Part shown: positions 23,023 through 42,548 of the stretch, in pieces | How the letters are laid out: the number at the start of each line of letters is the position of its first letter | Numbering within the stretch: position 1 is the stretch's first letter | Source of the DNA: an uncultured Barnesiella sp. | Lineage (GTDB): Bacteria > Bacteroidota > Bacteroidia > Bacteroidales > Barnesiellaceae | Direction: 5' to 3' | Assembly: GCA_944320015.1 (NCBI GenBank) | Contig: CALUFO010000006.1 | Span: 62,001 to 126,000 of the forward strand | DNA length: 64,000 bases | Program-made: the position numbers and the translations under genes | The notes under the pieces: model-generated | The model's input: the letters and a program-made list of their open reading frames with translations, nothing else | The model's database searches: none | What the model was told of the DNA's origin: nothing

Positions 23023-23595
23023 ATGGAATATTTAGGCAAGGCAGATGCGTTTTCGTCCTTTAACGAAATCTACCAAAAGTATAGAGAACCGTTTACAAAA
23101 TTGGCAATATCTTATGTAGGAGATAGAAGTATTGCCGAAGATTTTGTAACAGACTCTTTTATAGCTTATTGGGAAAATCGGAACAAATTACCTTCCAATG
23201 CGAATGTTCCGGCCTATATATTAGTTTCGCTTAAAAACAAGTGTTTGACTTATTTAACCCGACTTCGTAAGGAGCAGGAGGTTATCGATTCTATAAAGAG
23301 CCAGTATCAATGGGAGCTGGATTTTCAAATCGCTTCGTTGGAGGCTTGTGATCCTCAGGAAATATTTTCCGAGGAAGTTTGGCAATTGGTGAATGATGCT
23401 ATTCGGTCGCTCCCAGAAAAAACGAAAGAAATTTTTTTATTGAGCCGTATGGAGTATCTCACGAATCGAGAAATTGCCGAGCAACTCAATGTTTCTATTA
23501 AAACAGTGGAATTTCATGTGGGAAAGGCTTTGAAGGTGATGCGTGTGGCCTTGAAAGATTATTTGCCTGTTTTTTTTCTTCTCTTTATAAAATAA
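23023..23595 (+). CDS. ECF-type RNA polymerase sigma factor of the PUL
   Basis: A 190-residue sigma-70 family factor. Region 2 is visible at about residues 10-80 (FNEIYQKYREPFTKLAISYV, AEDFVTDSFIAYWENR) and region 4 at about 125-175 (LPEKTKEIFLLSRMEYLTNREIAEQL). It is followed after 61 nt by a FecR-type anti-sigma and then by a SusC with an STN domain. This is the standard ECF/anti-sigma trans-envelope switch, in which substrate binding by SusC releases the sigma factor to transcribe the PUL. The C-terminus ends in a short hydrophobic tail (LPVFFLLFIK). The cognate promoter cannot be identified by eye. Confidence 0.92.
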   Translation: MEYLGKADAFSSFNEIYQKYREPFTKLAISYVGDRSIAEDFVTDSFIAYWENRNKLPSNANVPAYILVSLKNKCLTYLTRLRKEQEVIDSIKSQYQWELDFQIASLEACDPQEIFSEEVWQLVNDAIRSLPEKTKEIFLLSRMEYLTNREIAEQLNVSIKTVEFHVGKALKVMRVALKDYLPVFFLLFIK

Positions 23596-23656
23596 TTGGT
23601 TTTTTCGTTAGGGTATATTTATACTCGTTAGTTATATATGCGTAAAGGGTAAATTT

Positions 23657-24586
23657 ATGGATAGAGAATTACTATATCGTTTTTTTAACGGAACAGCCTC
23701 CGAATCGGAACGGATAAGCATACGGAAGTGGGCCGAAGCGGCTCCTGAGAATATGCAAGAATTGTTGAAGGAACGTAAACTATATACGGCAATTATACTG
23801 ACTGGGGAGAGGGAAGCCTTTACCTCCTCGAAAGCTCCGGTTGGGTATAAACGATCTTATTTTGTTCGATGGGGGCAATATGCCGCGGTTTTCCTCTGTG
23901 CCGTTTTGCTCACATGGTTTGTTTCGAATCGCATGGATAGGGCTTCGTCGATAATGCAAATCGAGGTTCCTTTGGGACAATATATGAATTTGACTTTGGC
24001 CGATGGCACTAATGTCTACCTCAATTCGGGAACGGTTTTTAAATATCCGACAGCGTTTACCGGAAAAGAGCGCAAGGTAGAGATTGACGGAGAGGGATTT
24101 TTCAAGGTTACCCATCAAGAGAACGATGTCCCGTTTATCGTGAAAACCTCTAAGGGAAATGTGCGGGTATTGGGTACAAAATTCAATGTCGAAGCATATA
24201 AAGAAAAAGATCAATTTGAAACCTCTTTGATTGAAGGGAAAGTAGAAGTGATTGCCGGAGATGAACGGGTAATATTGAACCCGAATGAAAAAGTCCTGCT
24301 CGTTAATGGCAAGTTAGAAAAAGAGTCTTTATACGATTCCAGCTGTTATAGTTGGACCAGCGGCATTATTGAATTTAATAATATCCGATTCGAAGACCTG
24401 ATGGGTGAATTTGAGAAAATATATGGAGTTCGTATTGTTATAAACAATGCCGATTTGAAAGATAATCTTTGCTTGGGTAAGTTCCGGCGTATGGATGGAT
24501 TGGATTATGCTTTACAAGTGTTGCAGGTAGATATTCCTTTTGAATTTCAACACGATTTTGAGACAAAAACCTTTTATATTAACTAA
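23657..24586 (+). CDS. FecR-family anti-sigma factor
   Basis: A 309-residue inner-membrane regulator. A cytoplasmic N-terminal segment (about 1-70, ELLYRFFNGTASESERISIRKW) should hold the sigma factor. One transmembrane helix lies near 75-92 (QYAAVFLCAVLLTWFV). The periplasmic FecR domain (about 105-205, VPLGQYMNLTLADGTNVYLNSG, VLGTKFNVEAY) is followed by a C-terminal DUF4974-type domain (about 235-309, FNNIRFEDLMGEFEKIYGVRI) that contacts the STN domain of the receptor. Order and spacing agree with the neighbouring sigma factor and SusC. Confidence 0.93.
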   Translation: MDRELLYRFFNGTASESERISIRKWAEAAPENMQELLKERKLYTAIILTGEREAFTSSKAPVGYKRSYFVRWGQYAAVFLCAVLLTWFVSNRMDRASSIMQIEVPLGQYMNLTLADGTNVYLNSGTVFKYPTAFTGKERKVEIDGEGFFKVTHQENDVPFIVKTSKGNVRVLGTKFNVEAYKEKDQFETSLIEGKVEVIAGDERVILNPNEKVLLVNGKLEKESLYDSSCYSWTSGIIEFNNIRFEDLMGEFEKIYGVRIVINNADLKDNLCLGKFRRMDGLDYALQVLQVDIPFEFQHDFETKTFYIN

Positions 24587-24640
24587 AAATACCGATACAA
24601 TACCATGGGAAAAACATAGCTGCATAAAAAACGGGAATAC

Positions 24641-24716: not shown

Positions 24717-27700
24717 ATGAAAAAGAAATTGATGTCGGAGGGTGTTTATCCTTCAAATTCAATATTATTAAGATTTATGAAAACCACACGTTTCCTATTC
24801 CTGTTGGGTATATTGAATGTATGTGCGTTTAATGTCTATTCTCAAAATGCCCGTGTAACTATGAATCACACGAATACGCCTCTTCGAATTATCCTTAACG
24901 ACATAGAGTCGCAAACCAGTTATCTGTTTGTGATTATTAACTCTCAAGTCGATACTCAAAAGGCATATTCCATCAATGTCGAGTCGAAACCGGTATCTGC
25001 CGTATTGGACAAGTTGTTCGAGGGAGAGAACATCAATTATAAAATGCAAGGGAATCATATTGTACTCTCTCGTGAAACTCAGCAGAACAAACAAAAAGGT
25101 AAACGAACATTGACCGGTTATATCAAAGACAACTCGGGCGAACCCCTTGTTGGAGCCAGCATTCATGTGAAAGGGACCCAGCAAGGAACCGTAACCGACT
25201 TGAACGGCTATTTTCATATCGAAGGCGATTATGATGAAAACACCGTGTTGAGTATCCGTTATGTAGGAATGGAAAGCAAAGATATAGCTATTGCCGATAA
25301 GAACAGTTTCGATATTATTTTGGCCGATGGTACACAACAACTCGACGATGTGGTTGTGGTGGGATATGGAACTCAAAAAAAGATAAATTTGAGTGGCGCT
25401 GTCGAAGCCGTATCGGGTACGGTACTCGAAAACCGCTCGGTCAACAACGTGGGTACGATGTTGCAAGGGTTGGTACCTAACTTGAATATTTCTCTTGACG
25501 GAGGGCAGATAAACCATACTCCGAGTTTTAATATTCGAGGAGCAACGACCATTACCAATGGTGGTGCACCGTTGATTTTGGTAGATGGGATACCTATGGA
25601 GGAAGCTGAATTTTCGCGCATGAATAGTGCCGACATCGAGAGCATTTCGGTGTTGAAGGATGCTTCTTCGGCAGCTATTTACGGTGCTCGGGCCGCATTT
25701 GGCGTTATTCTTGTAACTACAAAAAAAGGAAAAGACGGGAAAGTAAAATTTACATTCAACAATACGGTAAACGTACGGACTTTGGGACGTATGCCCGAGG
25801 TGGTGAAAGACCCTTATATACAAGCTTCGTACAAAGATATTATGGGAGCACCGTGGTACGACCTCTACACCGAAGAAGAATTGGAATATGCCCGACAACG
25901 CTCGCTCGATCCTTCGCTTTCGCCGGTGATGATCGACCCTACCGATCCTAACCGCTATACCTATTTGGGTGCTACCGATTGGTTTCACGAATTGTATAAC
26001 GATACGGGACTATCCCATTCGCACTCTATCGGTATGTCGGGAGCAACGGAAAAGACTTCGTATTATTTGGGTGGTGAATATTTTGGAGAGAGCGGTATGC
26101 TCAAATATAATACCGACCAATATAATAGATATAATTTGCGGAGTAATGTCACCTATCAAGTGACGGACTGGTTGTCTATTTCGAACAATACTTCGATGAC
26201 CTATTACACCTACAAGGCTCCGTCGTCGCTCGATTGCGGTTGGTTATACAAGGAGGTACACAATGCCAATGCGTTAACGATACCCAAGAATCCCGATGGG
26301 AGTTGGACCGAGAGCGGAGCCAAATATATTGCCGGCACAGAAATGGGTGGAGAAAGTGAATACGAAGAATTATTGGCTCAAACGCAAATATCTTTTGACA
26401 TTCAATTGATTAAAAATGTGTGGTCGGTAAAAGGCGATTTTGCCGCCAAGTTTTGGAACAAGCATAAAAACTATTGGGAGTCGGACAAAGACTTTGTTTA
26501 CAGAGATGGTCCCGAAAGCGAACCAAAGGAATTGGGGTGGAGCGATTTTGCGCGTACCGAGCATGATAATTCCCGGTTTACTCTGTTCAACATATATACC
26601 AATTTCAATAAGAAATTCGGGAAGCACGAATTGGGGGTAACGGTAGGTTTTGAACAACAGTCCGAGTCGGCCCAATATTTCACGGGAGAGCGCGATGGCC
26701 TTATCAGTAATTCGGCTCCCAGTATCGGGGTGGCTTCGGGTGAAAATAAATCGTTGACCGACAGCCGTTACAGTTGGGCAACACGAAGCGGTTTTTATCG
26801 GTTGAATTATATTTTCAACGACAAATATATTTTTGAGGCCAATGGCCGTTATGACGGAACTTCCCGTTTCCAAAGAGATCATCGATTCGGTTTCTTTCCG
26901 TCGTTTTCGGCAGCGTGGGTAATCTCGAATGAGAAATTTTATCAAGGAATAAAAGATGTCATGAATACGGCCAAGTTGCGTGCTTCGTATGGTTGGCTGG
27001 GAAATCAGAATGTGGGTTATTACGAGTATATCTCGAATATGACATTCTATGAATGCGACTATTTGGTCAATGGGAAAAAGCCTATCGGAGTAGGGTCTCC
27101 CAACTTAATTTCCGATGATTTGACATGGGAAAAGGTGAATACCATCGATGTGGGTGTCGATCTGGCTTTTTTTAGCAACCGTTTGACTTTCAGTGGCGAT
27201 GTCTATCGCAGGAATACGAAAGATATGCTTACCCCCGGTAAAACGCTTCCGGGTGTTTTGGGAGTTACTTCGCCTCGTCAAAATGCAGCCGACTTGAAAA
27301 CCGAAGGTTGGGAAATCTCCATCGGCTGGCAGGATAATTTTATGTTGGCATCGAAACCTTTCCGTTATTCGGTGAAGTTTAACCTTTCCGATTCGTATGC
27401 CGAGATTACCAAGTTTAATAACGAGACGGGGACTTTGGACGATTACTATCCCGGATGGCGTATCGGCGATATTTGGGGATTGACTACCGAAGGGTTCTTC
27501 CAAAGCGAGGAGGATATTAAGAACCATGCCGACCAATGGGAGGTAACGGCCTATCCCGGCGACCGTCCGTTGGCACCCGGCGATTTGAAATACAAGGATT
27601 TGAATAACGATGGATATGTCAATAGAGGAAAATGGACGATCGACGATCATGGCGATTATTCGATTATCGGTAACAGCAATGCGCGCTATTGTTATGGTGC

Positions 27701-28160
27701 CGATATAAATGCCGAATGGAATGGATTCGATTTGAGAATATTGCTTCAAGGTGTAGGCAAGAAAGATTGGTATCCCAATGTGTTTACTTTCTTTGGAATC
27801 TATCGTGCTCCGTGGTCCGATGTATATACCAATAACCTCGACCATTGGACTCCTGAAAATCCCGACGGTTATTTTCCCCGTCTGAAATCCTATACCGCCG
27901 AGACTGCCGGTGATATGAGTATTCCGCAAACCCGATATTTGCAAGATGCCTCGTATATGAGAATCAAGAATATTACTTTCGGATATACATTGCCCCAGAC
28001 AATTACCCGTAAGATAAAAATAGAGCAGGTGCGATTCTATTTCAGTGGGGATAATGTAGCCGAGATAACCAAACTTTGCAAGAATGTCGACCCCGAAGGA
28101 TTAGGGTTGGTACACCCCATGCAGCGGGTATTTTCGTTCGGTTTGAATCTTAATTTCTAA
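24717..28160 (+). CDS. SusC-like TonB-dependent receptor with STN signalling domain
   Basis: A 1147-residue outer-membrane glycan importer. After a long N-terminus with an embedded signal sequence (MKTTRFLFLLGILNV, residues 21-35) come an STN domain (about 45-115, TPLRIILNDIESQTSYLF), a carboxypeptidase-regulatory-like domain (about 130-205, GYIKDNSGEPLVGASIHVKG), the SusC signature DDVVVVGYGTQKK (about 205-220), the plug with NIRGATTITNGGAPLILVDG, and the barrel ending LNLNF. The STN domain marks it as the sensor for the upstream anti-sigma/sigma pair. In characterised Bacteroides, STN-SusC with ECF pairs often serve host-glycan loci; this is guidance for substrate, not proof. Confidence 0.95.
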   Translation: MKKKLMSEGVYPSNSILLRFMKTTRFLFLLGILNVCAFNVYSQNARVTMNHTNTPLRIILNDIESQTSYLFVIINSQVDTQKAYSINVESKPVSAVLDKLFEGENINYKMQGNHIVLSRETQQNKQKGKRTLTGYIKDNSGEPLVGASIHVKGTQQGTVTDLNGYFHIEGDYDENTVLSIRYVGMESKDIAIADKNSFDIILADGTQQLDDVVVVGYGTQKKINLSGAVEAVSGTVLENRSVNNVGTMLQGLVPNLNISLDGGQINHTPSFNIRGATTITNGGAPLILVDGIPMEEAEFSRMNSADIESISVLKDASSAAIYGARAAFGVILVTTKKGKDGKVKFTFNNTVNVRTLGRMPEVVKDPYIQASYKDIMGAPWYDLYTEEELEYARQRSLDPSLSPVMIDPTDPNRYTYLGATDWFHELYNDTGLSHSHSIGMSGATEKTSYYLGGEYFGESGMLKYNTDQYNRYNLRSNVTYQVTDWLSISNNTSMTYYTYKAPSSLDCGWLYKEVHNANALTIPKNPDGSWTESGAKYIAGTEMGGESEYEELLAQTQISFDIQLIKNVWSVKGDFAAKFWNKHKNYWESDKDFVYRDGPESEPKELGWSDFARTEHDNSRFTLFNIYTNFNKKFGKHELGVTVGFEQQSESAQYFTGERDGLISNSAPSIGVASGENKSLTDSRYSWATRSGFYRLNYIFNDKYIFEANGRYDGTSRFQRDHRFGFFPSFSAAWVISNEKFYQGIKDVMNTAKLRASYGWLGNQNVGYYEYISNMTFYECDYLVNGKKPIGVGSPNLISDDLTWEKVNTIDVGVDLAFFSNRLTFSGDVYRRNTKDMLTPGKTLPGVLGVTSPRQNAADLKTEGWEISIGWQDNFMLASKPFRYSVKFNLSDSYAEITKFNNETGTLDDYYPGWRIGDIWGLTTEGFFQSEEDIKNHADQWEVTAYPGDRPLAPGDLKYKDLNNDGYVNRGKWTIDDHGDYSIIGNSNARYCYGADINAEWNGFDLRILLQGVGKKDWYPNVFTFFGIYRAPWSDVYTNNLDHWTPENPDGYFPRLKSYTAETAGDMSIPQTRYLQDASYMRIKNITFGYTLPQTITRKIKIEQVRFYFSGDNVAEITKLCKNVDPEGLGLVHPMQRVFSFGLNLNF

Positions 28161-28172
28161 AACGCATGGATT

Positions 28173-29948
28173 ATGAAAACAAGAATATTGTATATAACTA
28201 TTATAATTGCAAGTTTGTGTGGTTGTAACGATTCGTTTTTGGATCGTCTCCCCGAGACTTCGCTTGTTACGGAGAATTTCTTTAACTCGCCTTCCGATTT
28301 GGAACTGTTTGTCAACAAATTGTATTTGAGTGAGTCGCCTAAATATTGGGATCCGGGGACCGATAATGTCGTAGCCTCGGAAAAAGATGAAATGTTGGAT
28401 TTGATTCATGGGAATATCACACCGGCTACCGTTGGTGGTTGGGACTGGGGCCAGATAAGGGAATTGAATTATTTCCTCGATAATGCCGGTAAAGCCGAGG
28501 GTGACCAAGAACTTATCAACCATTACATCGGTATCGTGCGTATGTTGCGCGGTCGGGAATATTACGAAATGGTAAAACGGTATAGCGATGTGCCGTGGTA
28601 TGACCACGCTTTGAAAGATACCGAGATCGACGAACTTTACAAGCCACAGGATTCTCGTACGTATGTGGTCGAAAAAATCATGGAGGATTTGGATTTTGGT
28701 ACGAAGAATATTATGACCGATCTCGAAAATCGTACGGTCTATAATCGTTGGTATGCCTATGGATTACTCGCTCGCATAGCTTTGCACGAAGGTACGTTTA
28801 GAAAATATCATACCGAGTTGGGATTGGAAAATACGGCCGATGACTTTCTCAAAATAGCTGTTACAGCTTGCGAAGCGGTTATGGAGAATACGACCGACTT
28901 TGAAATTTACGATACCGACGGACCAGACGATTCGTATCGCAATCTCTTTATCAGTACCAATTTAAGTAAATGTAAAGAGATAATTCTATTTAAGGATTAT
29001 GACTATGATGCCCAAATAAAGCATTATGCTTCGAATCATGTTTTTTCTTATACGACCAATTTGAGCCGTGCATTGATGGAAAATTATTTGGTCAAGAAAG
29101 ACGGTAAGGCTATGCCTTTTTCTTCGGTGGAGAATTACCAGACAAAAACTTTTATGGAGACTTTTGCCGATAGAGATCCCCGATATGCACAGACTTTCAT
29201 GTATCCCGGTTATATTCGTCCGGGCGATGTTCAGCCTTTTATTCCCAATATGAACTTGGGCGGTTATCCGCAGATAAAATTTGTGTCGAAAGATGCCCAA
29301 CAGATTATGCCGGGGACATCGTATAACGATTTGCCTTTGATGCGTTTGGCCGAAATTTTGCTTATCTATGCCGAGGCAAAAGCAGAATTAGGTACCTTGA
29401 ATCAAGAAGATTTGGAGAAATCGGTCAATAAATTGAGGGACCGGGTAGATATGCCGCACATGGTATTGTCCGAACTCACGACCGATCCGGTTTTGGAACA
29501 GCAATATCCCAATGTAACGGGAGGCATGAAAAATGCGATTCTCGAAATCCGTCGGGAAAGGCGGGTAGAGTTGGCTTGCGAGGGATTCCGCAAGGACGAT
29601 GTGTTGAGGTGGAGAGTGGGCACTTTGCTCGAAATGCCGCAAGGAGCTTATATCCCCGAAATCAATACGGTGTTCGATGTTACGGGCGATGGTGTTGCCG
29701 ATGTGGGAATTTTCTTGAACAGTGCAGCGGTAAAGCCTATTTATAAAAAGAAAATATGCTATTATCTTGAAGATGAAAATGGCGAGAAAACCAGTATTTC
29801 TCTTTCTGAAGGAGATCATGGTTATATTATTCTAACGAATGATTTGACCAGTCCGAAGAAATTTATCGAACCGAAATATTATTATTTCCCCATACCTCAG
29901 GGAGAGCGTGTTACAAATCCGAATTTACGCGAAACAAATTTTTGGTAA
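28173..29948 (+). CDS. SusD-like surface glycan-binding lipoprotein
   Basis: A 591-residue SusD/RagB family lipoprotein partnering the SusC 12 nt upstream. The signal peptide ends in SLCGC, so lipidation at about Cys18 is likely. SusD features include FLDRLPETSLVTENFFNSPSDLE at the start, RMLRGREYYEMVKRYSDVPW (tetratricopeptide-like region), RLAEILLIYAEAKAELG, and the C-terminal IRRERRVELACEGFRKDDVLRW and KFIEPKYYYFPIPQGE. It should cap the SusC barrel and bind the oligosaccharide. The sequence alone does not reveal the ligand. Confidence 0.95.
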   Translation: MKTRILYITIIIASLCGCNDSFLDRLPETSLVTENFFNSPSDLELFVNKLYLSESPKYWDPGTDNVVASEKDEMLDLIHGNITPATVGGWDWGQIRELNYFLDNAGKAEGDQELINHYIGIVRMLRGREYYEMVKRYSDVPWYDHALKDTEIDELYKPQDSRTYVVEKIMEDLDFGTKNIMTDLENRTVYNRWYAYGLLARIALHEGTFRKYHTELGLENTADDFLKIAVTACEAVMENTTDFEIYDTDGPDDSYRNLFISTNLSKCKEIILFKDYDYDAQIKHYASNHVFSYTTNLSRALMENYLVKKDGKAMPFSSVENYQTKTFMETFADRDPRYAQTFMYPGYIRPGDVQPFIPNMNLGGYPQIKFVSKDAQQIMPGTSYNDLPLMRLAEILLIYAEAKAELGTLNQEDLEKSVNKLRDRVDMPHMVLSELTTDPVLEQQYPNVTGGMKNAILEIRRERRVELACEGFRKDDVLRWRVGTLLEMPQGAYIPEINTVFDVTGDGVADVGIFLNSAAVKPIYKKKICYYLEDENGEKTSISLSEGDHGYIILTNDLTSPKKFIEPKYYYFPIPQGERVTNPNLRETNFW

Positions 29949-30079: not shown

Positions 30080-31579
30080 ATGAGATATTTATTTCCTTTT
30101 ATACTGGGAATTTTCACGTTTGCACTTAGTGCGAAAGAGGTCTCTGTCACCTTTGACGATCCTGCCGATTTTTATGAGAAATATCGTTTCTCCGAGGGGA
30201 TAGAGGGGAAAGCAATGGATTTGGGAGCCGATGCATATCATCGTAATCCCATTACAGTAGGGCAAATCGATTCGCTCGATATGTGCCACTCTTTCTCGCT
30301 GAGTATTTGGGTGAAATCGGATAGCAAAAAATTGGGCGACAAGGTCATCGTTTCTAACAAACGGTCGTATGAGATGAAGGATGCCGGGATTATGCTATCG
30401 ACACAGGCTAACGGTTCTTGGAGTGTATATTTTACCGATGGGAAAAATTGGCAGTGGGATTACAAGCCAACCGTAGAACGGCAGCCCATTAATGATGGGA
30501 AGTGGCATTTTCTTGCAATTACGCATTTTGCCGAGAAAGAAGAGATGAAAATGTATTACGACGGACAAAATGTAGCAACCTATTGTACCAATGGCAATGT
30601 CAATTTGGCCACAGGAAATCTGTTGTATATAGGCAATCATATCGACGACCAATGGCACAGTTTCGAAGGGCTGTTGGATCGGTTTACATTTGTCGACCGC
30701 GTGAAAAGCAGTGACGAGATTGCCGATGAGTACACTCGTTTTACCGGAATTAAGCATGAAGAACATTTGCCCAAGTTTACCCCGGAGATAAATTTGATGG
30801 CTTTCAATATTTATCATGGAGGTCATGAATTGGGCGAACAGGTTGGTGTGAATCGTGTTGTGGAAGTAATCAAGGAATCGGGAGCCGATATTATCGGTAT
30901 GATCGAAACCTATGGGGCAGGCCCCGAGATTGCCGATGCATTGGGGTATTATTTCTATTTACGGAGTTCCAATCTTTCTATCATGAGCAAGTATCCCATT
31001 GAGCAGACTTGGGATATGTTCCAGCCCTTCAATACGTGTGCGGCGACTATAAGGATAAGCCAAACACAAACAATCAATTATGTCAATTTGTGGCTCGACT
31101 ATCGTCCCATTACCGACGAGCAAGTCAAAGCCCGCCTGTCGGTCGAGGAGATAGAGGCACAGGAGTTACCTACGCGTTATCGCGAACTGAACGCCATATT
31201 GGACGATATGCAACCTTTTTTCGAACAAAGAGATGTCCCTATTTTCGTCTCGGGAGATTTCAATAGCGGCTCTCATTTGGATTGGACCGAAGAAGCCAAA
31301 CATCTGTTCGAAGGGTATGTGTTGAAGTGGCCGACCAGTGTCTTGATGGAACAAAAAGGTTTCAAAGATTCGTATCGTGAACTCTATCCCGATCCGGTGA
31401 AATACCCTTGCCTCACATGGTCTACCATGTCCAAACTGGATATTCAGTATCGTATCGATTTCATCTATTATTTAGGCGATAAGGTAAAAGCCGTCCGCTC
31501 CGAGATGCTCGATAAGCATCCTGTACGCTTCCCCTCGGATCATGCGGCCATGATAACCACATTCAAGTTTAAGAAATGA
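30080..31579 (+). CDS. Exported LamG-EEP protein: lectin-like domain fused to a phosphodiesterase-type domain
   Basis: A 499-residue exported protein (signal MRYLFPFILGIFTFALSAK). Residues ~25-230 form a LamG/concanavalin-like jelly roll (FSLSIWVKSDSKKLGDKVIVSN, DGKWHFLAITHF, LLYIGNHIDDQWHSFEGLLDRF). Residues ~240-499 form an endonuclease/exonuclease/phosphatase (EEP) domain with all hallmark residues: MAFNIYHGG, GMIETYG (Glu), VSGDFNSGSHLDW (Asp-Asn), and FPSDHAAMI (Asp-His). EEP enzymes cleave phosphodiester or phosphomonoester bonds in nucleic acids, inositol phosphates or sphingomyelin. Inside a glycan locus and next to HexNAc hydrolases, a phosphodiester in the glycan is the likely target (inference). 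The start is 30080; an in-frame ATG at 30023 lacks a signal peptide. The 131-nt gap before it holds a weak hairpin. Confidence 0.85.
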   Translation: MRYLFPFILGIFTFALSAKEVSVTFDDPADFYEKYRFSEGIEGKAMDLGADAYHRNPITVGQIDSLDMCHSFSLSIWVKSDSKKLGDKVIVSNKRSYEMKDAGIMLSTQANGSWSVYFTDGKNWQWDYKPTVERQPINDGKWHFLAITHFAEKEEMKMYYDGQNVATYCTNGNVNLATGNLLYIGNHIDDQWHSFEGLLDRFTFVDRVKSSDEIADEYTRFTGIKHEEHLPKFTPEINLMAFNIYHGGHELGEQVGVNRVVEVIKESGADIIGMIETYGAGPEIADALGYYFYLRSSNLSIMSKYPIEQTWDMFQPFNTCAATIRISQTQTINYVNLWLDYRPITDEQVKARLSVEEIEAQELPTRYRELNAILDDMQPFFEQRDVPIFVSGDFNSGSHLDWTEEAKHLFEGYVLKWPTSVLMEQKGFKDSYRELYPDPVKYPCLTWSTMSKLDIQYRIDFIYYLGDKVKAVRSEMLDKHPVRFPSDHAAMITTFKFKK

Positions 31580-33217: not shown

Positions 33218-34090
33218 ATGAAAAAGTTAACTGTACTTTTGGTGTGTGTGGCTGCCTCGTTTGCTCAAATGTGGTCACAAGTTACGATCTCTTTGGAAAA
33301 TTTTCATATTCAAAGGGGTGAGGATATTGTAGTTTCTTATAGCAATGGTGCTGGGAATGACAAAGATTATATAGGAATTGCTCCTCTCGGACAGCTAATT
33401 ACCGGTATACCGGGTGGATATACGACGACTTATGCCTATTTGGACAACCCGGGGGCGAAAGAGGGTATCTGTACCATTCCGGCCAATAATATGGGCGCTA
33501 CGGGTGACGGATATTATTGGGCTGTATATTTGCTGAACGATGCTTATGATGCGGCTTCGGAGTATATTCCTTTTTATTATGGAGAATCTGCTCCTCAGAA
33601 TGAGAGCCCTGTTTTGACGGTTGATGAGTGCACGGTGGATTATACGACAATCACTTTTACCGATAACGAACTTTGGAGAATGTTGATAAAAGAGATAAAT
33701 GTCGATGGTGAAGTACTTAGTCCCGATGACTATGCCATAGAAGCAGGAGCCTTGTATGTGTTGAAAGATTTGACTTCTGCCGGTTCGCTTACGATTATTG
33801 CATGGGATCACTCCGATGCAACCGTTCAATTAGGCAATAGTTCTTCGATTGATGAAGCGAGCATTCTGAACGGTATACGTTTCTATAATAACGTGTTATA
33901 TGTTGCCAACGGGCAATCGGCAATTCAATCGGTTTCTGTATTCTCTTTGACAGGCGCATTGTCGGCAACTTATCCTGTTGGTATGGGCGAAAACACTATC
34001 GATTTGAACCACTTGAATGGCGGTGTTTATATCGTTAAGGTCAATGGAGCCGTGGCTACCAACGCTATCAAGATTGTTGTTAAACATTAA
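33218..34090 (+). CDS. Secreted Ig-like protein with sorting-type tail, unknown function
   Basis: A 290-residue exported protein (signal to about residue 19, QMWSQ). Residues ~20-120 form a beta-sandwich of the type found before phosphoesterase domains (ENFHIQRGEDIVVSYSNGAG, KDYIGIAPLG). Residues ~130-205 resemble a DUF1533/hemoglobin-interacting-like module (ELWRMLIKEINVDGEVLSPDDY, GSLTIIAWDH), a low-confidence match. The last ~70 residues (RFYNNVLYVANGQSAIQSVSVFSLTG, LNGGVYIVKV) form a T9SS-like tail. It sits where SusE/SusF-type binding proteins are often encoded. A surface binding role is inferred. I do not recognise a named family for the whole protein. Confidence 0.7.
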   Translation: MKKLTVLLVCVAASFAQMWSQVTISLENFHIQRGEDIVVSYSNGAGNDKDYIGIAPLGQLITGIPGGYTTTYAYLDNPGAKEGICTIPANNMGATGDGYYWAVYLLNDAYDAASEYIPFYYGESAPQNESPVLTVDECTVDYTTITFTDNELWRMLIKEINVDGEVLSPDDYAIEAGALYVLKDLTSAGSLTIIAWDHSDATVQLGNSSSIDEASILNGIRFYNNVLYVANGQSAIQSVSVFSLTGALSATYPVGMGENTIDLNHLNGGVYIVKVNGAVATNAIKIVVKH

Positions 34091-34143: not shown

Positions 34144-36768
34144 ATGAAAAAGGCCTTTATCCTCATATTGAATATTAGTTTTTGTCTCAATCTTTTGTCA
34201 CAATCTTTTCAACCCGAATTTTCGGTTGCTGGATTTTTCCCGATGAAAGATTCGGGGAGAGAGGTGTATTCGCTGAATCCGTCGTGGCGGTTTTGCAAAG
34301 GTGATATTGCGGCCGCCGAGAGGAAAGATTTTGATGATTCGAATTGGGCACGGGTATCGCTTCCTCATAGTGTAGATACGTTGCCCACCGAGGCCAGCGG
34401 GTGCGTCAATTATCAAGGTATATGTTGGTATAGAAAACATTTCGAGATATCTCCGTCCCTTTTGGGGAAGAAATTATTCCTTTATTTCGAAGCCATTATG
34501 GGTGAGGCCCACGTTTGGGTCAATGGAGAATTGTGCGCTGTTCATTATGGCGGTTATTTGCCTGTAATTATCGATATTACCGATAAATTGGAAGAAGAAA
34601 ATGTCATAGCTGTTTGTGCCGATAATTCCAACAACCCGTTGTATCCGCCGGGTAAGCCCCAAGAGTTTCTCGACTTTACCTATTCGGGAGGGATTTATCG
34701 CGATTGCTGGCTTATCGCCCATAACCGGATTTATATTACCGACGACAATTATGCGTCGGAAGTTGCTGGCGGAGGGACTTTTGTCTCTTATGACCGGGTT
34801 TCGGAGGAGTTGGCCGATTTGAACCTTCGATTGCAATTAAAGAACGAGACAAATACCCCTTTTAGAGGAGAAACCCATATTACATTGTACTCCCCGGCGG
34901 GAAAAATTATAAGTCAAAAAATATCTTCTATCCGCATATTACCGGGCAAAACAAAAGATTACTCGACCCGAATCGAAGTTAAAAAGCCACAACTATGGTA
35001 TCCCTCGTCTCCGTCTCTGTATCAGTTGTATATCGAGGTTAAAGATCGAACCGGTAAAACGATAGATGGGTATCGCAAGAAAATAGGTATACGAAGTATT
35101 GAATTTAAAGGGAAGGAGGGATTATGGATAAACGGGAAACCCTATCCGCATCCGTTAATGGGGGTGAATCGGCATCAAGATTTTGCCGTAGTAGGGAATG
35201 CAATGACTAATAATTTGCATTGGCGCGATGCAAGGAAAATTAAAGATTTGGGGTTGGAGATTGTTCGAAATGCCCATTATCCGCAAGACCCGGCCTTTAT
35301 GGATGCTTGTGATGCGTTGGGGCTTTTTGTCATAGAGAACACGCCGGGATGGCAGTTTTGGAATGATGATCCCATTTTTCAGTCGCGAGTTTTCGACGAT
35401 ATTCGGAATATTATTCGCCGAGATCGGAGCCGCCCCTCGGTTTTCCTTTGGGAACCGATATTGAATGAAACATGGTATCCCGAATCTTTTGTCGATAGCG
35501 TGGTGCGAATTGTTGCCGAAGAGTATCCATATCCCTATTCGCACATTGTGAGCGATTCTGAGGCACGAGGAGCATCTAATTTTTCGGTGCTATATGCTCA
35601 TCCGGCGAATGGCGATACCGATATAGCCATTAAAAAAGCAGATCCCGAGGTCTCTTATTTTACACGAGAGTGGGGCGATAATGTCGATGATTGGAACTCA
35701 CACAATTCTACCAGCCGGGTCAACCGGTGTTGGGGTGAAGTTCCGATGTTGGTACAGGCTACTCATTATGCTTCTCCCCCGTATGTTTGTACAAGCTATG
35801 ATGCTTTGTGGAAAACGTCGCGGCAGCATATCGGAGGGTGTTTATGGCACTCGTTCGATCATCAGAGAGGATACCACCCCGACCCGTTTTATGGAGGTTT
35901 GACCGATGTATTCCGGCAGCCCAAGTATTCGTATTATATGTTTATGGCCCAGCGTCCGGTAGATTCGTTGAATATTCAAGCCGATAGCGGCCCGATGGTT
36001 TATATTGCACACGAGATGTCGCCTTTTTCGCCAGCCGATGTAACGGTATATTCCAATTGTGAAGAGGTGCGGCTTACTGTTTTCCGAAACGGAACGACCT
36101 ATACGTATAAAAAGAAAACCCAAGCAGGAATGCCGTCGCCCATTATTTTGTTCAAAGATGTTTATCGGTTTATGGACGATAAAGCTCTTTCCCGGCAAGA
36201 TCGTCATGAAGAGGTTTTTTTATTGGCCGAGGGATTTCGTAATGGTGTAAAAGTGGCCGAGCACAAACGGATGCCGGCTCGACGACCTGCAAAAATCGCA
36301 TTGAGGTTGGATTCCGAGGAGATCAATCCAATTGCCGATGGCTCCGATTTAGTGACTGTAATAGCTTCGATCACCGATGAGCGAGGAACGGTTAAACGTT
36401 TGAACAATTATCACATACGTTTTTCGGTCGAGGGAGAAGGCCGTTTGGTGGCAGATGAGAGTACGCATACCAATCCGCGGGCGGTGGAGTGGGGTACTGC
36501 TCCTGTCCTTTTGCGAACCACGCTTCGCCCGGGGAAGGTAAAAGTAACGGCCGAGGTCGATTTTCAAGGAATGCAAACGCCTTTACGGGGAGAATTGGAA
36601 TTTGAAGTATTGCCGGCGCCCTATAAGTTTATTTATGATGAAGAAGAGCGAACAGGGGTAAATGAATTGGGTTCGACCGACAAAGTGTCGAATGATGCGG
36701 AAGAGCGATATAAACTGAATGAAGAATTGAAAAAAGTGGAACGTCAACAAACAGAGTTCGGAGAGTAG
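34144..36768 (+). CDS. Glycoside hydrolase family 2 protein
   Basis: An 874-residue exported enzyme (signal MKKAFILILNISFCLNLLSQS). Domain order is that of GH2: sugar-binding jelly roll (~40-215, WRFCKGDIAAAERKDFDDSNW, NYQGICWYRKHFEI), Ig-like domain (~225-325), TIM barrel (~330-600) with GVNRHQDFAVVG and VRNAHYPQDPAFMDACDALGL, then C-terminal Ig-like domains. The acid/base Glu is in ILNETW (~442) and the nucleophile Glu in TREWGD (~509). Substrate is beta-galactoside, beta-mannoside or beta-glucuronide; the family does not say which. The C-terminus ends in a charged ~50-residue segment (EERTGVNELGSTDK..) that is not part of the fold. Confidence 0.92.
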   Translation: MKKAFILILNISFCLNLLSQSFQPEFSVAGFFPMKDSGREVYSLNPSWRFCKGDIAAAERKDFDDSNWARVSLPHSVDTLPTEASGCVNYQGICWYRKHFEISPSLLGKKLFLYFEAIMGEAHVWVNGELCAVHYGGYLPVIIDITDKLEEENVIAVCADNSNNPLYPPGKPQEFLDFTYSGGIYRDCWLIAHNRIYITDDNYASEVAGGGTFVSYDRVSEELADLNLRLQLKNETNTPFRGETHITLYSPAGKIISQKISSIRILPGKTKDYSTRIEVKKPQLWYPSSPSLYQLYIEVKDRTGKTIDGYRKKIGIRSIEFKGKEGLWINGKPYPHPLMGVNRHQDFAVVGNAMTNNLHWRDARKIKDLGLEIVRNAHYPQDPAFMDACDALGLFVIENTPGWQFWNDDPIFQSRVFDDIRNIIRRDRSRPSVFLWEPILNETWYPESFVDSVVRIVAEEYPYPYSHIVSDSEARGASNFSVLYAHPANGDTDIAIKKADPEVSYFTREWGDNVDDWNSHNSTSRVNRCWGEVPMLVQATHYASPPYVCTSYDALWKTSRQHIGGCLWHSFDHQRGYHPDPFYGGLTDVFRQPKYSYYMFMAQRPVDSLNIQADSGPMVYIAHEMSPFSPADVTVYSNCEEVRLTVFRNGTTYTYKKKTQAGMPSPIILFKDVYRFMDDKALSRQDRHEEVFLLAEGFRNGVKVAEHKRMPARRPAKIALRLDSEEINPIADGSDLVTVIASITDERGTVKRLNNYHIRFSVEGEGRLVADESTHTNPRAVEWGTAPVLLRTTLRPGKVKVTAEVDFQGMQTPLRGELEFEVLPAPYKFIYDEEERTGVNELGSTDKVSNDAEERYKLNEELKKVERQQTEFGE

Positions 36769-36794: not shown

Positions 36795-39700
36795 ATGAAA
36801 TCCATGAAGAAATATTTTGTTTTAATTATCACGTTGATTGTATTGTTGTTGCCTGTTCGAGCAATGGCCGGGACAGGTAATGTTTGGGTAATGCCCGGTA
36901 CCGAAATTGTAGAGAATTACCAAAATTTCCCGGCGAAGGAGTATAATCAAGTTGTTATGGGAAGAGGCGAAACCGAGCATATGCAACTGGTATTCTCTTC
37001 TATCCCGACGCAGGATATAACGGTTACAGCGTTGTCTAAACCTGCTGCAATCGATGTACAGTATAGAATCGTGCGCGAAATCGATGGGTTCGACGATGCT
37101 TTGGTCCCTTTCGAGTCTGTTGTGAGGGCCGAAGATGCGACAACGGTTATTTGGCTGACTTTTGAGACCGGTAGGGACTGTCCTGTCGGCACGTATGATT
37201 ATTCGGTAAATGTTAAAACTGTGGCGGTAGATGCTGTGTTGAATTTTAAAATACGGGTAGCCGATTATGAGATTCCGCTTACTCCGTCTATTCCGTCGGT
37301 ATTTAGTATCGACATCGATAATATTCCCGATAATGGTTCGGATAGACAGAAAGAGTTGTGGACCGAGTTCTTGTTGTCGCGGCGTATAGACCCGTATTAT
37401 AGCGAGCTTATCGATAAAGGCGCTTGGCGCTGGGATAATTGTTTCTCACCCTGGGCTTGGGACGATCCCAGAAGTTTGGCTTTGCTCAAAGACGAACGCT
37501 TTTGCCGTTTTGCATTGCCCTTCATGCTCGAAGATGAAGAACTTTTGCGTATGTGCAGTTATATGAAACAAGAGGGCGTTTTTGACAGATGTTACTTTTA
37601 TATTTGGGACGAACCCAAGAAACCGTCGCATTATGACCAAATAGCCGAGTTGTCTTCCCATTTGCATTCGATAGATCCCGATGCAAAAATGTTGGTGCCG
37701 GTTTCGAGTTTTTTGGTAGAAGGCGATCATAAATGGGATTACAATTATACATTCGATTTCCTCTCTCAGTATGTTGAGATTTTACCGGTAGCTGCCGAAG
37801 AGTATAAAGGTGAAAATACAAAGGCCGAGGAGTTTAGAAATATGATAGAACCGCGTTCGGAATGGTGGACCTACGTATGTTGCTATCCCAAAGGCGGGCA
37901 GCCCAATTTCCTTTTGGAGGAGACGTCGTTCCATACCCGGGCCATCATGTGGAGAGTTTGGCGAGAACAGGAGACAGGATTTCTCTATTGGGGAGTAAAC
38001 CGCTATCAGGTGAATCCTTTTGAATTTGACCGCAGTTTGGACGCCGTGGGCGATGGCGCTTTGGTTTTCCCGGGAAGTCTGTTCGGAATAGAAGAACAAC
38101 CGATTGCCTCTGTGCGGTTGGAGCAATGGAAAGAGGGACAAGAGGACTATGAACTGTTGAAACTCGTAGAGCAAAAAATCGGTCGGGAGAAAACCGAGAG
38201 GATATTGAATCAAGTATATCGCACTCCTACCGATTTTGCAAAAAGCTCCGGGGATATCGAGGCGTTTCGAAATAGTTTGATTCGGGTTATGGAGACCGAG
38301 GATCTTTCAACTCAAATTGTGATACGCGGGGAGCTTTGTGAGATAGATACATTGAATGCGTATGAACCGGGACCGGGTTGTGAATATACGCATATCCGTA
38401 TAGATAATTTGCCAATCGAAGCGCATATCTTGAAATTGGATTTGCAAAATCAATACAGTCAGGTAAAAACTTTTTTGGGCAATGATGTCATCGACGGGCT
38501 GGAAAAAGTCTCTTCGGCTTGTGAAAGATATACGACCGGGAGTACCGACGCTTATGCCGGGATAAACGGCGATTTTTTCAATATTGCCGCACATCACGAG
38601 TTCCCTCTTGGGGCTCCTCGGGGTGGTTGTGCGTCGGAAGGCGTTATACAACGGGAACCCCGAAGTATGGAGTGGGCTTTTGCTGCGGTCGATTACGATA
38701 ATAAGCCTATTCTTAATAATTTGGAATTTGAGGGTTCTGTCGTTAGTTTGAAGGCTCCTATTTCGTCCTATACTTTCTACGATGTCAATATTCCGAGGAC
38801 CGATTGTTATTCTTGTGACATGACATTTTATAATGAGTTTGCCGGAGGTTATACGCGCATGGACGAGAATGCCAATATTGGCAATAAACTCAAAACAGAG
38901 GTGTTTTTTAAACTTTCCGATGGACAGAGTTGGGGAATAAATGCTCCAAAAACGTGTGTGGTGACACGAATTATTAAGGATACGCAAGGTCATAATGCGT
39001 TGGCTGCTGGCGAGTCGGCTCTGTCGGGAATAGATGGGGCAAAAGAGTTCTTGGATAAATTGACGGTGGGACAGAAACTGAAAATCAATATGACAATTAG
39101 GACTGCCGATGGCGAGACTCCCAATATAAAAGAGATGGTCGGAGGAAATTCCCTTTTGATGAAGAACGGAGCCATCATGGATTGTAACTTTACCGATTCC
39201 TACAATAATGTATTGTATCCGAGAACTGGCATTGGCTGCTCCTCCGATGGGCGTTGGTTGTACTTGATGGCTATCGATGGGCGTCAATCCCATTCACGGG
39301 GAGTTTACTCCGATGAGATGTGCGATATTTTCAAACATATAGGAGCTTCGGATGTGGTAGGATTTGATGGTGGCGGTTCTACCGGAATGGTAGTAAACCA
39401 TGCCGTAGTGAATAAACCGAGCGATGGCGTAGAGCGAGCCGTAACAAACGGGTGGCTGTTGAGAACATCGGCTCCGTTTGATGAAGAAATATCGCGTTTA
39501 GCATTTAACTATTGGAATAAAGAGCATATCAATGCGTTGACAATTCCGTTGAGTATATTGGGGTATAACCAATATGGTGTACTTCTGGATTCGGATCTTT
39601 CGCCGGTTACGTTGACTTGTTCGCCGGGATTGGGCCATATCGAAGGGCAAACCTTATACCTCGATGGTTCTGAAAAGAAAGGGGTAGTCACCGCCTCTTA

Positions 39701-40013
39701 CAACGGGATAAGTGTTTCGCGTTACCTCAATCTGGGTGAGTCTTCCCATATAAATGATATGTTGAGCGATAACGCTTCTATCCGGTTTTACAAAGATGCG
39801 TCGAGCAATAGGTTTTATTTGAGTAAGAATGGTTCCGAAAAGTGCAGCATGAACTATGCGTTGTATGCGTTGAACGGTAATTGTGTGCAACAAAATGTTG
39901 CCGATTTTTCGGATACGTATTGTTTCGATTTCACTATGGTGTCATCGGGAATGTATCTTTTGCGGGTAAATTTAGCCGATAGCAGTTATACATTTAAACT
40001 TGTTATTCGATAA
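36795..40013 (+). CDS. DUF4091 (GH123-like) - phosphodiester glycosidase (NAGPA) fusion with sorting tail
   Basis: A 1072-residue exported fusion. The signal peptide is MKSMKKYFVLIITLIVLLLPVRAMA. Residues ~30-480 match the DUF4091/GH123-like arrangement (IWDEPKKPSHYDQIAELSSH; LYWGVNRYQVNPFE near 397; GDGALVFPGSLFG; SVRLEQWKEGQEDYELL), related to beta-N-acetylgalactosaminidases. Residues ~540-870 form a phosphodiester glycosidase domain (DUF2233/NAGPA family): AGINGDFFN near 587, PRTGIGCSSDGRWLYLMAIDG, and FDGGGSTGMVV near 855. Human NAGPA removes GlcNAc from GlcNAc-1-phospho-mannose. An Ig-like segment and a T9SS-like tail (ASIRFYKDASSNRFYLS.., GMYLLRVNL) close the protein. Two hydrolases on one surface-bound chain imply linked cleavage of HexNAc and a sugar phosphodiester. 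It starts 26 nt after the GH2 gene. Confidence 0.85.
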   Translation: MKSMKKYFVLIITLIVLLLPVRAMAGTGNVWVMPGTEIVENYQNFPAKEYNQVVMGRGETEHMQLVFSSIPTQDITVTALSKPAAIDVQYRIVREIDGFDDALVPFESVVRAEDATTVIWLTFETGRDCPVGTYDYSVNVKTVAVDAVLNFKIRVADYEIPLTPSIPSVFSIDIDNIPDNGSDRQKELWTEFLLSRRIDPYYSELIDKGAWRWDNCFSPWAWDDPRSLALLKDERFCRFALPFMLEDEELLRMCSYMKQEGVFDRCYFYIWDEPKKPSHYDQIAELSSHLHSIDPDAKMLVPVSSFLVEGDHKWDYNYTFDFLSQYVEILPVAAEEYKGENTKAEEFRNMIEPRSEWWTYVCCYPKGGQPNFLLEETSFHTRAIMWRVWREQETGFLYWGVNRYQVNPFEFDRSLDAVGDGALVFPGSLFGIEEQPIASVRLEQWKEGQEDYELLKLVEQKIGREKTERILNQVYRTPTDFAKSSGDIEAFRNSLIRVMETEDLSTQIVIRGELCEIDTLNAYEPGPGCEYTHIRIDNLPIEAHILKLDLQNQYSQVKTFLGNDVIDGLEKVSSACERYTTGSTDAYAGINGDFFNIAAHHEFPLGAPRGGCASEGVIQREPRSMEWAFAAVDYDNKPILNNLEFEGSVVSLKAPISSYTFYDVNIPRTDCYSCDMTFYNEFAGGYTRMDENANIGNKLKTEVFFKLSDGQSWGINAPKTCVVTRIIKDTQGHNALAAGESALSGIDGAKEFLDKLTVGQKLKINMTIRTADGETPNIKEMVGGNSLLMKNGAIMDCNFTDSYNNVLYPRTGIGCSSDGRWLYLMAIDGRQSHSRGVYSDEMCDIFKHIGASDVVGFDGGGSTGMVVNHAVVNKPSDGVERAVTNGWLLRTSAPFDEEISRLAFNYWNKEHINALTIPLSILGYNQYGVLLDSDLSPVTLTCSPGLGHIEGQTLYLDGSEKKGVVTASYNGISVSRYLNLGESSHINDMLSDNASIRFYKDASSNRFYLSKNGSEKCSMNYALYALNGNCVQQNVADFSDTYCFDFTMVSSGMYLLRVNLADSSYTFKLVIR

Positions 40014-40033
40014 TTTCGATCCGGTAAATTCTT

Positions 40034-40076
40034 CCAACATCGCAACGATTCGGGTTATAATCGATTGCGATGTTGG
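40034..40076 (+). other. Long hairpin after the fusion gene
   Basis: CCAACATCGCAA (40034-40045) pairs perfectly with TTGCGATGTTGG (40065-40076), extended by CGATT/AATCG with one bulged A. There is no T-run. It lies in the 228-nt gap before the GH78-like gene; the rest of that gap is AT-rich with no clear promoter. Confidence 0.65.
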
Positions 40077-40241
40077 GTACGATAATAATTCTAAATCGAA
40101 ATAATCCTGTTTATGGTAGGATAAAAATTTTCGATAATTTTGTGTAGCGGAATACCTTGTAAAAAAGATTGAGTTTGTGGTATTTTGCTTTTTCATCATG
40201 ATTATGCAATAGTATATAAATTCCCGAATTCCTTAATCTGT

Positions 40242-42548
40242 ATGATACGTAAAGCAATCCTGTTTATTTTCGTTTCCATATTTTATTTTTCTGTGCAGGC
40301 CGATGTAGGACGAGGCTATTGGATTACAGCATTTGAAAACCAGAGTGCCACAAATACATGGCTTTGTTTTCGTCAAGATATTTGTTTGGAAACTCTTCCC
40401 CGGGGAGACGTACAACTCAAAATTGCGGCCGATAGCAAATATTGGTTGTGGATAAACGGGCAACTTGCTGTTTTCGAAGGAGCTGTAAAACGAGGTCCTA
40501 CTCCTGCGGACACTTATTACGATATGGTCGAGGTCTCTTCTTTTTTACAAAAAGGGCGAAATACGGTTGCCATACTGTTGTGGTATTTCGGGAAAGAGGG
40601 ATTTTCGTATCAACCGAGTGGTAAAGCCGGGTTGTTTGTAGAGAGCCTTTCGAGAGAGTTTCCGTTGTATAGCAATAAAGGATGGTTGGCGGCTATTCAT
40701 GGCAGCTATTATACTCCGGTCGGGTCGCAGCCTAATTTCAGATTGCCCGAATCCAATATCGGGTATGATGCCCGTCGTTTTTCCGAGTTGTGGAAATCGC
40801 TTCCGATAGATAGCCTTTCGTATCCGTGGCAAGCCGCCGTGGAGATTGGGCCCGAGGGGTGTATGCCATGGAACAAACTTTATCCGAGAATTATACCGTT
40901 GTGGAAAAATTACGGTTTGAAGTCTTATGACCGGCAGGAGTGGCGGCGAGGTTTGGAGAAAGATACATTGGTGTGTTATTTGCCCTATAATATGCAGTTG
41001 ACTCCCTATATGGAGTTGCAAGCGCAGAGCGGCGATACGATAGGTATATGGACCGATAATTATAAAGGTGGGGGTGCGAATAATGTCCGGGCCGAGTATA
41101 TTGCGAAAGAGGGCCCTCAAAGTTATGAAAGTTTGGGGTGGATAAACGGGCATTCTGTCTATTATGTATTTCCCAAAGGAGTAGAACTGCTGAATGTTTC
41201 TTATCGAGAAACTTCGTATGATACTTCGTTCGAGGGTTCTTTCAGTTGCAATGATTACTTTTATAACCGGCTTTGGGAAAAAGCTCAACGCACGTTGTTG
41301 GTTACCATGCGCGATACCTATATGGATTGTCCCGATCGGGAGAGGGCACAATGGTGGGGCGATGAGGTCATCGAGTCGGGCGAGTCGTTTTATGCACTTT
41401 GTCCGAAATCGCATTTGCTCATGAAGAAAGGAATGTATGAGTTGATGCGATGGCAAAGAGCCGATGGTACAATTTTTTCTCCGATACCGGCGTCGAATTA
41501 CCAAACCGAACTTCCGGGACAAATGTTGGCCAGTATCGGGTATTATGGCTTTTGGAACTATTTCCTCAATACGGGCGATACGGCGACGATTGCCGATTTA
41601 TACGATTCGGTTAAACGATATTTGGCCGTTTGGGAATATAACGACGATGGTACCATTAAGTTTCGTAGCGGCGAGTGGACATGGGGCGATTGGGGAACGA
41701 ATATCGATATACAAGGATTGTTCAATGCTTGGTATTATTTGGCTTTGGACGGAGTTTCCCGAATGGCCGAAGTGCTTGATAAAAAAGAAGATGTTATGGA
41801 AATGAGGCAAGAGATGGAGCAGTTGAAAGTCTCTTTTAACCGAGTATTTTGGAAAGGGGATGCCTACCGGGCCGATGAATCGTTACCCGATCCCGATGAT
41901 CGCCTTCAAGCTTTGGCCGTTGTTTCCGGGTTAGCCGATGAATCGAAATACGGAGCCATTCTGAAACTGTTTCAACAGTATGAGTATGCCAGTCCGTATA
42001 TGGAAAAATACGTATTGGAGGCATTGTTCCGTATGGAACATCCTTGTGAAGCTCTTGCCCGCATGAAACGCCGATTCGGCAAAATGGTCGATAATTCCTA
42101 TCTTACTACGCTTTTCGAAGGGTGGGGTATTGGTGCCGAGGGTTTTGGCGGCGGCACTTACAATCATGCATGGAGTGGTGGCGGTTTAACCCTTTTGGCT
42201 CAAAAAGTTTGTGGAATAGCTCCGGTAAAACCGGGCTTTAAGGAATTTAGTGTAATGCCGCAAATGGGTCCGCTTGTTCAGACCGAAACTTCGTTGCTGA
42301 GTGTGAACGGAAGAATCTCGATTGCTTTGAATCGCTCCGGGAAGGACTTGAAAATTCGGTTGAATGTCCCACCCAATACGCAAGCGTTATTACCGATAAA
42401 AGCCGATGTCCGTCAAGTGTCGTTGAACGGAGACGTAATTTATAAGAATAAGCAATTCTGTTTTGGTAAACGGTATAAGATCGATTCTTTGAATGGACAT
42501 TCTGTTCGACTGCCGGAAGGAGAATGGAGAATAACGATTTTGTATTAA
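40242..42548 (+). CDS. GH78-like (alpha-L-rhamnosidase fold) glycoside hydrolase
   Basis: A 768-residue exported protein (signal MIRKAILFIFVSIFYFSVQA). An N-terminal beta-sandwich (YWLWINGQLAVFEGAVKRGPTPADT) and central sandwich precede an (alpha/alpha)6 barrel. The family's acidic catalytic stretch appears as YMDCPDRERAQWWGDEVIESG near residue 360, followed by GWGIGAEGFGGGTYNHAWSGG and a C-terminal sandwich with GFKEFSVMPQMGPL. The stretch departs from the usual GH78 DCPxRxExxGWxGD pattern, so true rhamnosidase activity is uncertain. The start 40242 is chosen because the signal peptide begins there; the frame is open from 40185. It is the last PUL gene. Confidence 0.82.
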   Translation: MIRKAILFIFVSIFYFSVQADVGRGYWITAFENQSATNTWLCFRQDICLETLPRGDVQLKIAADSKYWLWINGQLAVFEGAVKRGPTPADTYYDMVEVSSFLQKGRNTVAILLWYFGKEGFSYQPSGKAGLFVESLSREFPLYSNKGWLAAIHGSYYTPVGSQPNFRLPESNIGYDARRFSELWKSLPIDSLSYPWQAAVEIGPEGCMPWNKLYPRIIPLWKNYGLKSYDRQEWRRGLEKDTLVCYLPYNMQLTPYMELQAQSGDTIGIWTDNYKGGGANNVRAEYIAKEGPQSYESLGWINGHSVYYVFPKGVELLNVSYRETSYDTSFEGSFSCNDYFYNRLWEKAQRTLLVTMRDTYMDCPDRERAQWWGDEVIESGESFYALCPKSHLLMKKGMYELMRWQRADGTIFSPIPASNYQTELPGQMLASIGYYGFWNYFLNTGDTATIADLYDSVKRYLAVWEYNDDGTIKFRSGEWTWGDWGTNIDIQGLFNAWYYLALDGVSRMAEVLDKKEDVMEMRQEMEQLKVSFNRVFWKGDAYRADESLPDPDDRLQALAVVSGLADESKYGAILKLFQQYEYASPYMEKYVLEALFRMEHPCEALARMKRRFGKMVDNSYLTTLFEGWGIGAEGFGGGTYNHAWSGGGLTLLAQKVCGIAPVKPGFKEFSVMPQMGPLVQTETSLLSVNGRISIALNRSGKDLKIRLNVPPNTQALLPIKADVRQVSLNGDVIYKNKQFCFGKRYKIDSLNGHSVRLPEGEWRITILY

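Follow-up and report, generated by a model that had tools for sequence, protein, structure and literature searches.

The window analysed here, a stretch of 64,000 nucleotides of an uncultured Barnesiella sp. (assembly GCA_944320015.1, contig CALUFO010000006.1, positions 62,001 to 126,000), contains a polysaccharide utilization locus (PUL) whose ten genes all lie on the + strand between positions 23023 and 42548. It is a PUL of a known kind, with adjacent susC and susD genes followed by degradative enzymes in the same direction, and shows a rare fusion enzyme, which joins a GH123 and a NAGPA domain, and a SusCD pair from a clade linked to phosphodiesterases. The substrate that we favour is a bacterial surface glycopolymer bearing L-rhamnose, beta-linked N-acetylhexosamine (HexNAc), probably beta-galactose, and phosphodiesters; a Gram-positive wall rhamnan or teichoic-type polymer with a GlcNAc-1-phosphate anchor is the best fit, and confidence in this description as a whole stands at about even. 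Taken separately, a phosphodiester in the substrate is probable, an origin in the bacterial envelope is likely to a slightly smaller degree, and the specific assignment to a wall rhamnan or teichoic-type polymer is at best an even call.

The SusD clade was analysed by a SusD search across 393 genomes of the order, in which 30 related, non-orthologous SusD loci were compared with 40 control SusD loci from the same or orthologue-bearing genomes. Genes encoding EEP, metallophosphoesterase, GDPD and NAGPA proteins were scored with iterated profiles when they were on the same strand and within 9 kb downstream. Phosphodiesterase-type neighbours are present in 16 of the 30 related and 5 of the 40 control loci (p=4.4e-4), a comparison in which the related set itself supplied the seeds for metallophosphoesterase and GDPD, the controls are the stronger SusD profile matches, and the related loci are not independent of each other. 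The difference persists when the comparison is limited to loci for which 3 kb or more lie downstream (16/25 against 5/38, p=7e-5), and when only EEP is counted, with seeds taken from outside this set (11/30 against 2/40, p=0.0012). Two control loci show a loose DGGGS-type motif, which was not scored as NAGPA for want of profile support. On the SusD tree, obtained by a quick search, the label takes 11 changes, against 21 in shuffles (0 of 500 shuffles), and a supported clade of 27 SusD rows contains 19 positive, five negative and three undetermined loci.

By Pfam, cousin loci show two EEPs with GH89 and GH3, or an EEP with GH3, GDPD and an MFS transporter, and from this gene content they look like teichoic-acid loci. 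Two of the PULs beside the same SusD clade contain two EEP genes, a GH89 alpha-GlcNAcase, a GH3 and a GH20-like open reading frame (ORF). Two other SusCD loci (L180 and L161) have GDPD and a GlpT-like MFS transporter, to which L180 adds an EEP and a GH3; they are candidate glycerol-phosphate polymer loci. Two further Barnesiella genomes again have EEP and NAGPA together beside a SusD of this type. Published precedents are the phosphate utilisation systems (PUS; PMC8115612) and 576 susCD loci with phosphodiesterases and without carbohydrate-active enzymes (CAZymes).

The full-length fusion is encoded in at least five loci, a lower bound since the scan of the collection's genome contigs relied on two peptide patterns. 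Its identity is 99% in Candidatus Barnesiella excrementigallinarum, 85% in another Barnesiella metagenome-assembled genome (MAG), 76% in Barnesiella sp. An55, 71% in Coprobacter secundus and 68% in Bacteroides nordii. The source genome is B. excrementigallinarum-like, from chicken gut, and human-gut relatives carry a near-intact locus. Barnesiella sp. An55 and C. secundus show all ten genes in the same order by tblastn, with identities of 87-91% for SusC and 68-92% for the remaining genes. The stretches available cover SusC to GH78 in B. excrementigallinarum, GH20 to GH78 in the Barnesiella MAG, and SusC to GH78 in B. nordii, where the sigma/FecR end is outside the view. The same arrangement of genes recurs in orthologous loci of other genera whose proteins are as little as about 60-70% identical, and chance clustering was therefore rejected as an explanation of the set. 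Loss of the EEP and NAGPA genes from all orthologous loci, which the earlier note on this DNA had named as evidence that would tell against a phosphodiester substrate, was not observed: both genes are kept in every orthologous locus whose region was covered. In An55 and C. secundus both keep their signature motifs intact; in B. nordii, the check covered the EEP motifs and DGGGS and found them present. Two loci have additional genes: an alpha/beta hydrolase (esterase) between SusD and EEP in C. secundus, and a GH36 ahead of GH78 in B. nordii. In B. nordii JCM 12987, frameshifts break the SusC, fusion, GH36 and GH78 frames, and probably that of GH2; draft sequencing errors and decay cannot be told apart as their cause.

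The fusion shows a GH123 domain at residues ~25-500, a NAGPA/DUF2233 domain at ~505-985 and then a T9SS-like tail. Among solved structures, NgaAt (8k2h, E 1e-48) is the best match to the GH123 half, which has both the GH123_cat profile and the DE catalytic pair; the revised GH123 family takes in such former DUF4091 enzymes (PMC11087588). The NAGPA half matches 3ohg and animal NAGPA chains by profile and keeps the NG, RT and DGGGS motifs, with NGDFF and DGGGS in the fusion. Its AlphaFold2 model has a predicted local distance difference test (pLDDT) score of 88.9 and matches the animal NAGPA 6pky at 1.5e-10, and Foldseek returned only DUF2233/NAGPA structures at E <= 0.001. Profile, fold and the DGGGS, NG(D/G) and RT motifs thus place it in the NAGPA family, as a predicted HexNAc-1-phosphodiester glycosidase. 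The tails of the fusion and of the small secreted protein score near the curated cut-offs for the type IX secretion system (T9SS); all three genomes examined for SprA of this system have it, which makes T9SS-type tails plausible on both. Small PULs in two other places contain GH27 with one or two single-domain GH123 proteins related to the first half of the fusion. No description of a GH123-NAGPA fusion was found in the literature searched, nor anything direct on DUF2233/NAGPA in PULs or on the biochemistry of Bacteroidota NAGPA.

The source genome shows seven NAGPA matches. Two of these paralogues belong to a locus conserved in Bacteroidales that also encodes GHL10 and Amidase_3 (N-acetylmuramoyl-L-alanine amidase), domains that are tied to peptidoglycan breakdown. 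Since the paralogues sit with these genes, a locus that looks like one for peptidoglycan or a wall polymer, bacterial envelope substrates seem favoured for this NAGPA family. This conserved locus, seen in seven cases, also contains PKD lipoproteins and several T9SS tails, and is often beside SusCD.

The second phosphodiesterase-type protein, LamG-EEP, keeps the metal and catalytic residues N, E, GDFN, RID and SDH. Its AlphaFold2 model has a pLDDT of 90.6 and its nearest folds are TDP2 and nocturnin; a single-sequence search of the PDB gave no match, and the fold relation came from profile and model. The features of the EEP superfamily (fold, N, E, GDFN, D and SDH) are therefore present, with the exception of the NTHL His.

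The rhamnose evidence comes from the GH78 protein, which matches RhaB (2okx) at 6.6e-38 and shows equivalents of D567, E572, D579 and E841, the four residues that we take to be the catalytic acids; with the catalytic-domain profile, they mark it as a GH78 member and a predicted alpha-L-rhamnosidase. In several genomes, GH78 relatives of 50% identity adjoin genes for rhamnose kinase, isomerase, transporter and aldolase, and the source genome itself has RhaA within a RhaB-RhaA-RhaT-RhaD run (gene names and run were read from sequence). The rhamnose-containing bacterial polymer that the earlier note had offered as one option, if the GH78-like enzyme were a true rhamnosidase, is favoured by these acids and this operon. 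Among the other glycosidases, GH20 has a GGDE catalytic motif and 8pxu as nearest solved structure. The nearest solved chains of GH2 are beta-galactosidases and beta-glucuronidases. The small protein, with a Shr-like_HID domain, gave no match in a PDB search.

From these genes we infer the catalytic steps and their order. Ligand-loaded STN-SusC would pass a signal to FecR and on to the ECF sigma factor in a trans-envelope control, and fragments would be captured and imported by SusD and SusC. GH20, GH123 and GH2 would strip beta-HexNAc and beta-Gal, EEP would take off a substituent held by a phosphodiester, for example glycerol phosphate, and NAGPA would hydrolyse a HexNAc-1-P phosphodiester in the anchor or the backbone. 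Rhamnose freed by GH78 would feed the RhaB-RhaA-RhaT-RhaD pathway that this genome encodes. In the group A carbohydrate of streptococci, an alpha-rhamnan backbone bears beta-GlcNAc side chains decorated with glycerol phosphate and is tied to peptidoglycan by a GlcN(Ac)-1-P phosphodiester (PMC8807736). By analogy, the enzyme set would match such a rhamnan, and the polymer could stem from any rhamnose-bearing Gram-positive bacterium, with Gram-negative capsules and O-antigens as further possible sources. In its most extended form, which is rather unlikely, the proposal would be that this SusD clade marks phosphoglycan utilization loci and that the fusion is dedicated to trimming beta-HexNAc and afterwards severing the HexNAc-1-phosphate anchor by which wall rhamnans or teichoic acids are attached to peptidoglycan, so that gut Bacteroidota feed on the walls of Gram-positive neighbours.

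Several observations weigh against the favoured substrate. The NTHL His that is canonical for EEP proteins, equivalent to H134 of DNase I, is replaced by Trp in the LamG-EEP orthologues (WLDY, 31091-31102), and relatives of this EEP also occur in ordinary GH29/sulfatase loci. Stand-alone GH123 relatives adjoin GH27 alpha-galactosidases, a pairing that other glycans would fit as well; the locus contains no teichoic-acid-specific gene, such as GDPD or GlpT; and rhamnose and HexNAc are also present in Gram-negative O-antigens and capsules. The Trp weakens the predicted phosphodiesterase activity and the chemistry of this clade may have changed, but ExoIII/APE1-type EEPs likewise lack the NTHL His, and activity would still be compatible with its loss. 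The general statement of the earlier note that EEP enzymes cleave phosphodiesters agrees here with the fold and most active-site residues, and was too strong in view of the Trp and the GH29/sulfatase relatives. The same two points count against its phosphodiester-linked HexNAc substrate, which the retention of EEP and NAGPA and the enrichment in the SusD clade support. They are also what speaks, with the lack of Bacteroidota NAGPA biochemistry in the literature searched, for a phosphate-free glycan of HexNAc, galactose and rhamnose, on which the EEP and NAGPA folds would be accessory or act on other bonds. This is the alternative that survives best, and yet an unlikely one, against which stand two unrelated phosphodiesterase-type families kept together in every orthologous locus covered, the intact uncovering-enzyme (UCE) motifs of NAGPA, and a SusD clade enriched for several distinct phosphodiesterase families.

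If the substrate were not a Gram-positive wall polymer but a rhamnose-containing capsule, O-antigen or exopolysaccharide of Gram-negative bacteria, built on a HexNAc-1-phosphate backbone, the same enzyme logic would apply. Many repeats of such polymers contain HexNAc-P and Rha, and the additional GH36 of B. nordii and esterase of Coprobacter are consistent with variable substituents; however, the cousin loci and the NAGPA paralogue loci have teichoic-acid- or peptidoglycan-type enzymes, and this origin is judged improbable. A host phosphoglycan, either GlcNAc-phospho-mannose N-glycans or glycosylphosphatidylinositol (GPI) glycans, is highly improbable. Animal NAGPA (UCE) cleaves GlcNAc-1-P-6-Man and complex N-glycans fit GH20 and GH2, but the locus lacks GH92, GH18, GH33, GH29 and sulfatase genes. 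Vertebrate glycans are not known to contain L-rhamnose, so neither the rhamnose operon nor a GH78 that keeps its catalytic acids would be of use on them; the host options, which the earlier note had included, are disfavoured for this reason and were rejected as first choice. The rhamnose- and HexNAc-bearing envelope phosphoglycan is favoured over host glycans because of the SusD-clade enrichment, the GH78 clade in rhamnose operons and the genome's own rhamnose operon. A phosphorus-scavenging PUS locus of the Flavobacterium type, induced by phosphate starvation, is the least probable alternative: PusCD complexes do adjoin phosphodiesterases and phosphomonoesterases (PMC8115612), but here phosphomonoesterase is absent, the presence of CAZymes, absent from PUS loci, led us to reject membership in this class (SusCD and phosphoesterases without CAZymes), and the dedicated ECF/FecR/STN control argues for substrate induction.

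The ten genes and their single direction, already listed in the earlier note, are backed gene by gene by Pfam and NCBIfam profile matches, and the ORFs match the coordinates of Table 1. Intergenic gaps range from -4 to 130 bp, with the single exception of the 228 bp ahead of the GH78 gene, whose inverted repeat may be a regulatory stem or a terminator, with the GH78 gene possibly transcribed on its own. The likeliest start codons are ATG 30080 for EEP (most likely), ATG 33218 for the small protein and ATG 40242 for GH78. An Rfam scan of positions 20000-46000 gave no RNA match besides tRNA-Gly.

Table 1. Features of the PUL and its borders (positions in the window).
Feature	Position	Strand	Evidence and remarks
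tRNA-Gly(CCC)	22556..22629	+	left island border; ARAGORN, Rfam 66 bits
ECF sigma factor (Sig70_bacteroi1)	23023..23595	+	158.9 bits, above cut-off
FecR-type anti-sigma factor	23657..24586	+	FecR 5.3e-16, FecR_C 3.7e-13
SusC-like TonB-dependent transporter, N-terminal STN signalling domain	24717..28160	+	STN + CarbopepD_reg_2 + Plug
SusD-like surface glycan-binding lipoprotein	28173..29948	+	SusD_RagB 2.5e-43; phosphodiesterase-associated SusD clade
Secreted LamG-EEP protein	30080..31579	+	Laminin_G_3 (lectin-like) 8.8e-21, Exo_endo_phos 2e-10
Predicted GH20 beta-N-acetylhexosaminidase	31576..33180	+	profile 1.2e-102, GGDE motif
Small secreted protein	33218..34090	+	Shr-like_HID domain, plausible T9SS sorting tail
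Predicted GH2 beta-glycosidase, beta-galactosidase-like	34144..36768	+	GH2 profile
GH123-NAGPA fusion	36804..40013	+	GH123_cat 4.5e-22 (old DUF4091), NAGPA 3.4e-25, weak T9SS tail
Intergenic gap, 228 bp	40014..40241	+	12-bp inverted repeat CCAACATCGCAA...TTGCGATGTTGG
Predicted GH78 alpha-L-rhamnosidase	40242..42548	+	Bac_rhamnosid6H, Bac_rhamnosid_C 6.3e-30
GNAT-nitrilase gene	42637..44193	-	right island border, outside the PUL

In three Barnesiella genomes without the PUL, the DAGK, phosphoesterase, tRNA-Gly and nitrilase genes are contiguous or almost so, and form an empty site where the nitrilase gene is 97-98% identical. Both An55 and the window have the PUL in the gap between tRNA-Gly and the nitrilase gene, and in Coprobacter and B. 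nordii the flanking genes differ from those of Barnesiella. The empty site and the differing flanks in other genera suggest that the PUL was horizontally acquired beside tRNA-Gly.

If the favoured reading is true, the locus would give common gut Bacteroidota a defined set of genes for consuming the phosphate-linked polymers of other bacteria as a gut food source. The GH123-NAGPA enzyme would be predicted to detach wall glycopolymers by cutting their phosphodiester anchor, which would make it a useful analytical tool, and the NAGPA/DUF2233 domain, common in the source genome (seven places), would gain a testable role. In the literature searched, no PUL for teichoic acids or phosphate-linked bacterial polymers is directly described. 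The animal uncovering enzyme NAGPA and BACOVA_00430 (3ohg) share the catalytic-domain fold and the NG(D/G), RT and DGGGS motifs with the fusion, whereas here the domain is fused to GH123, is followed by the T9SS-like tail and shows ~15% identity to the animal enzymes. NgaAt, a GH123 group 2 beta-hexosaminidase (PMC11087588) and the closest solved relative of the other half, also keeps the DE pair, but is a plant enzyme without a NAGPA domain. Bacteroidota PULs under ECF-sigma/FecR/SusC-STN control share the SusCD pair, CAZymes and trans-envelope signalling with the present locus, which adds NAGPA and EEP. The Flavobacterium PusCD systems (PMC8115612) likewise show SusCD by phosphodiesterase genes, while the present locus is CAZyme-rich, has no phosphomonoesterase and shows regulation of the substrate type. 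The PUL42 of Dysgonomonas gadei and PULs of B. finegoldii, which digest mycobacterial arabinogalactan (PMC10115798), are a precedent for gut Bacteroidota PULs acting on a bacterial wall polymer, from which the present locus differs in polymer and enzyme families.

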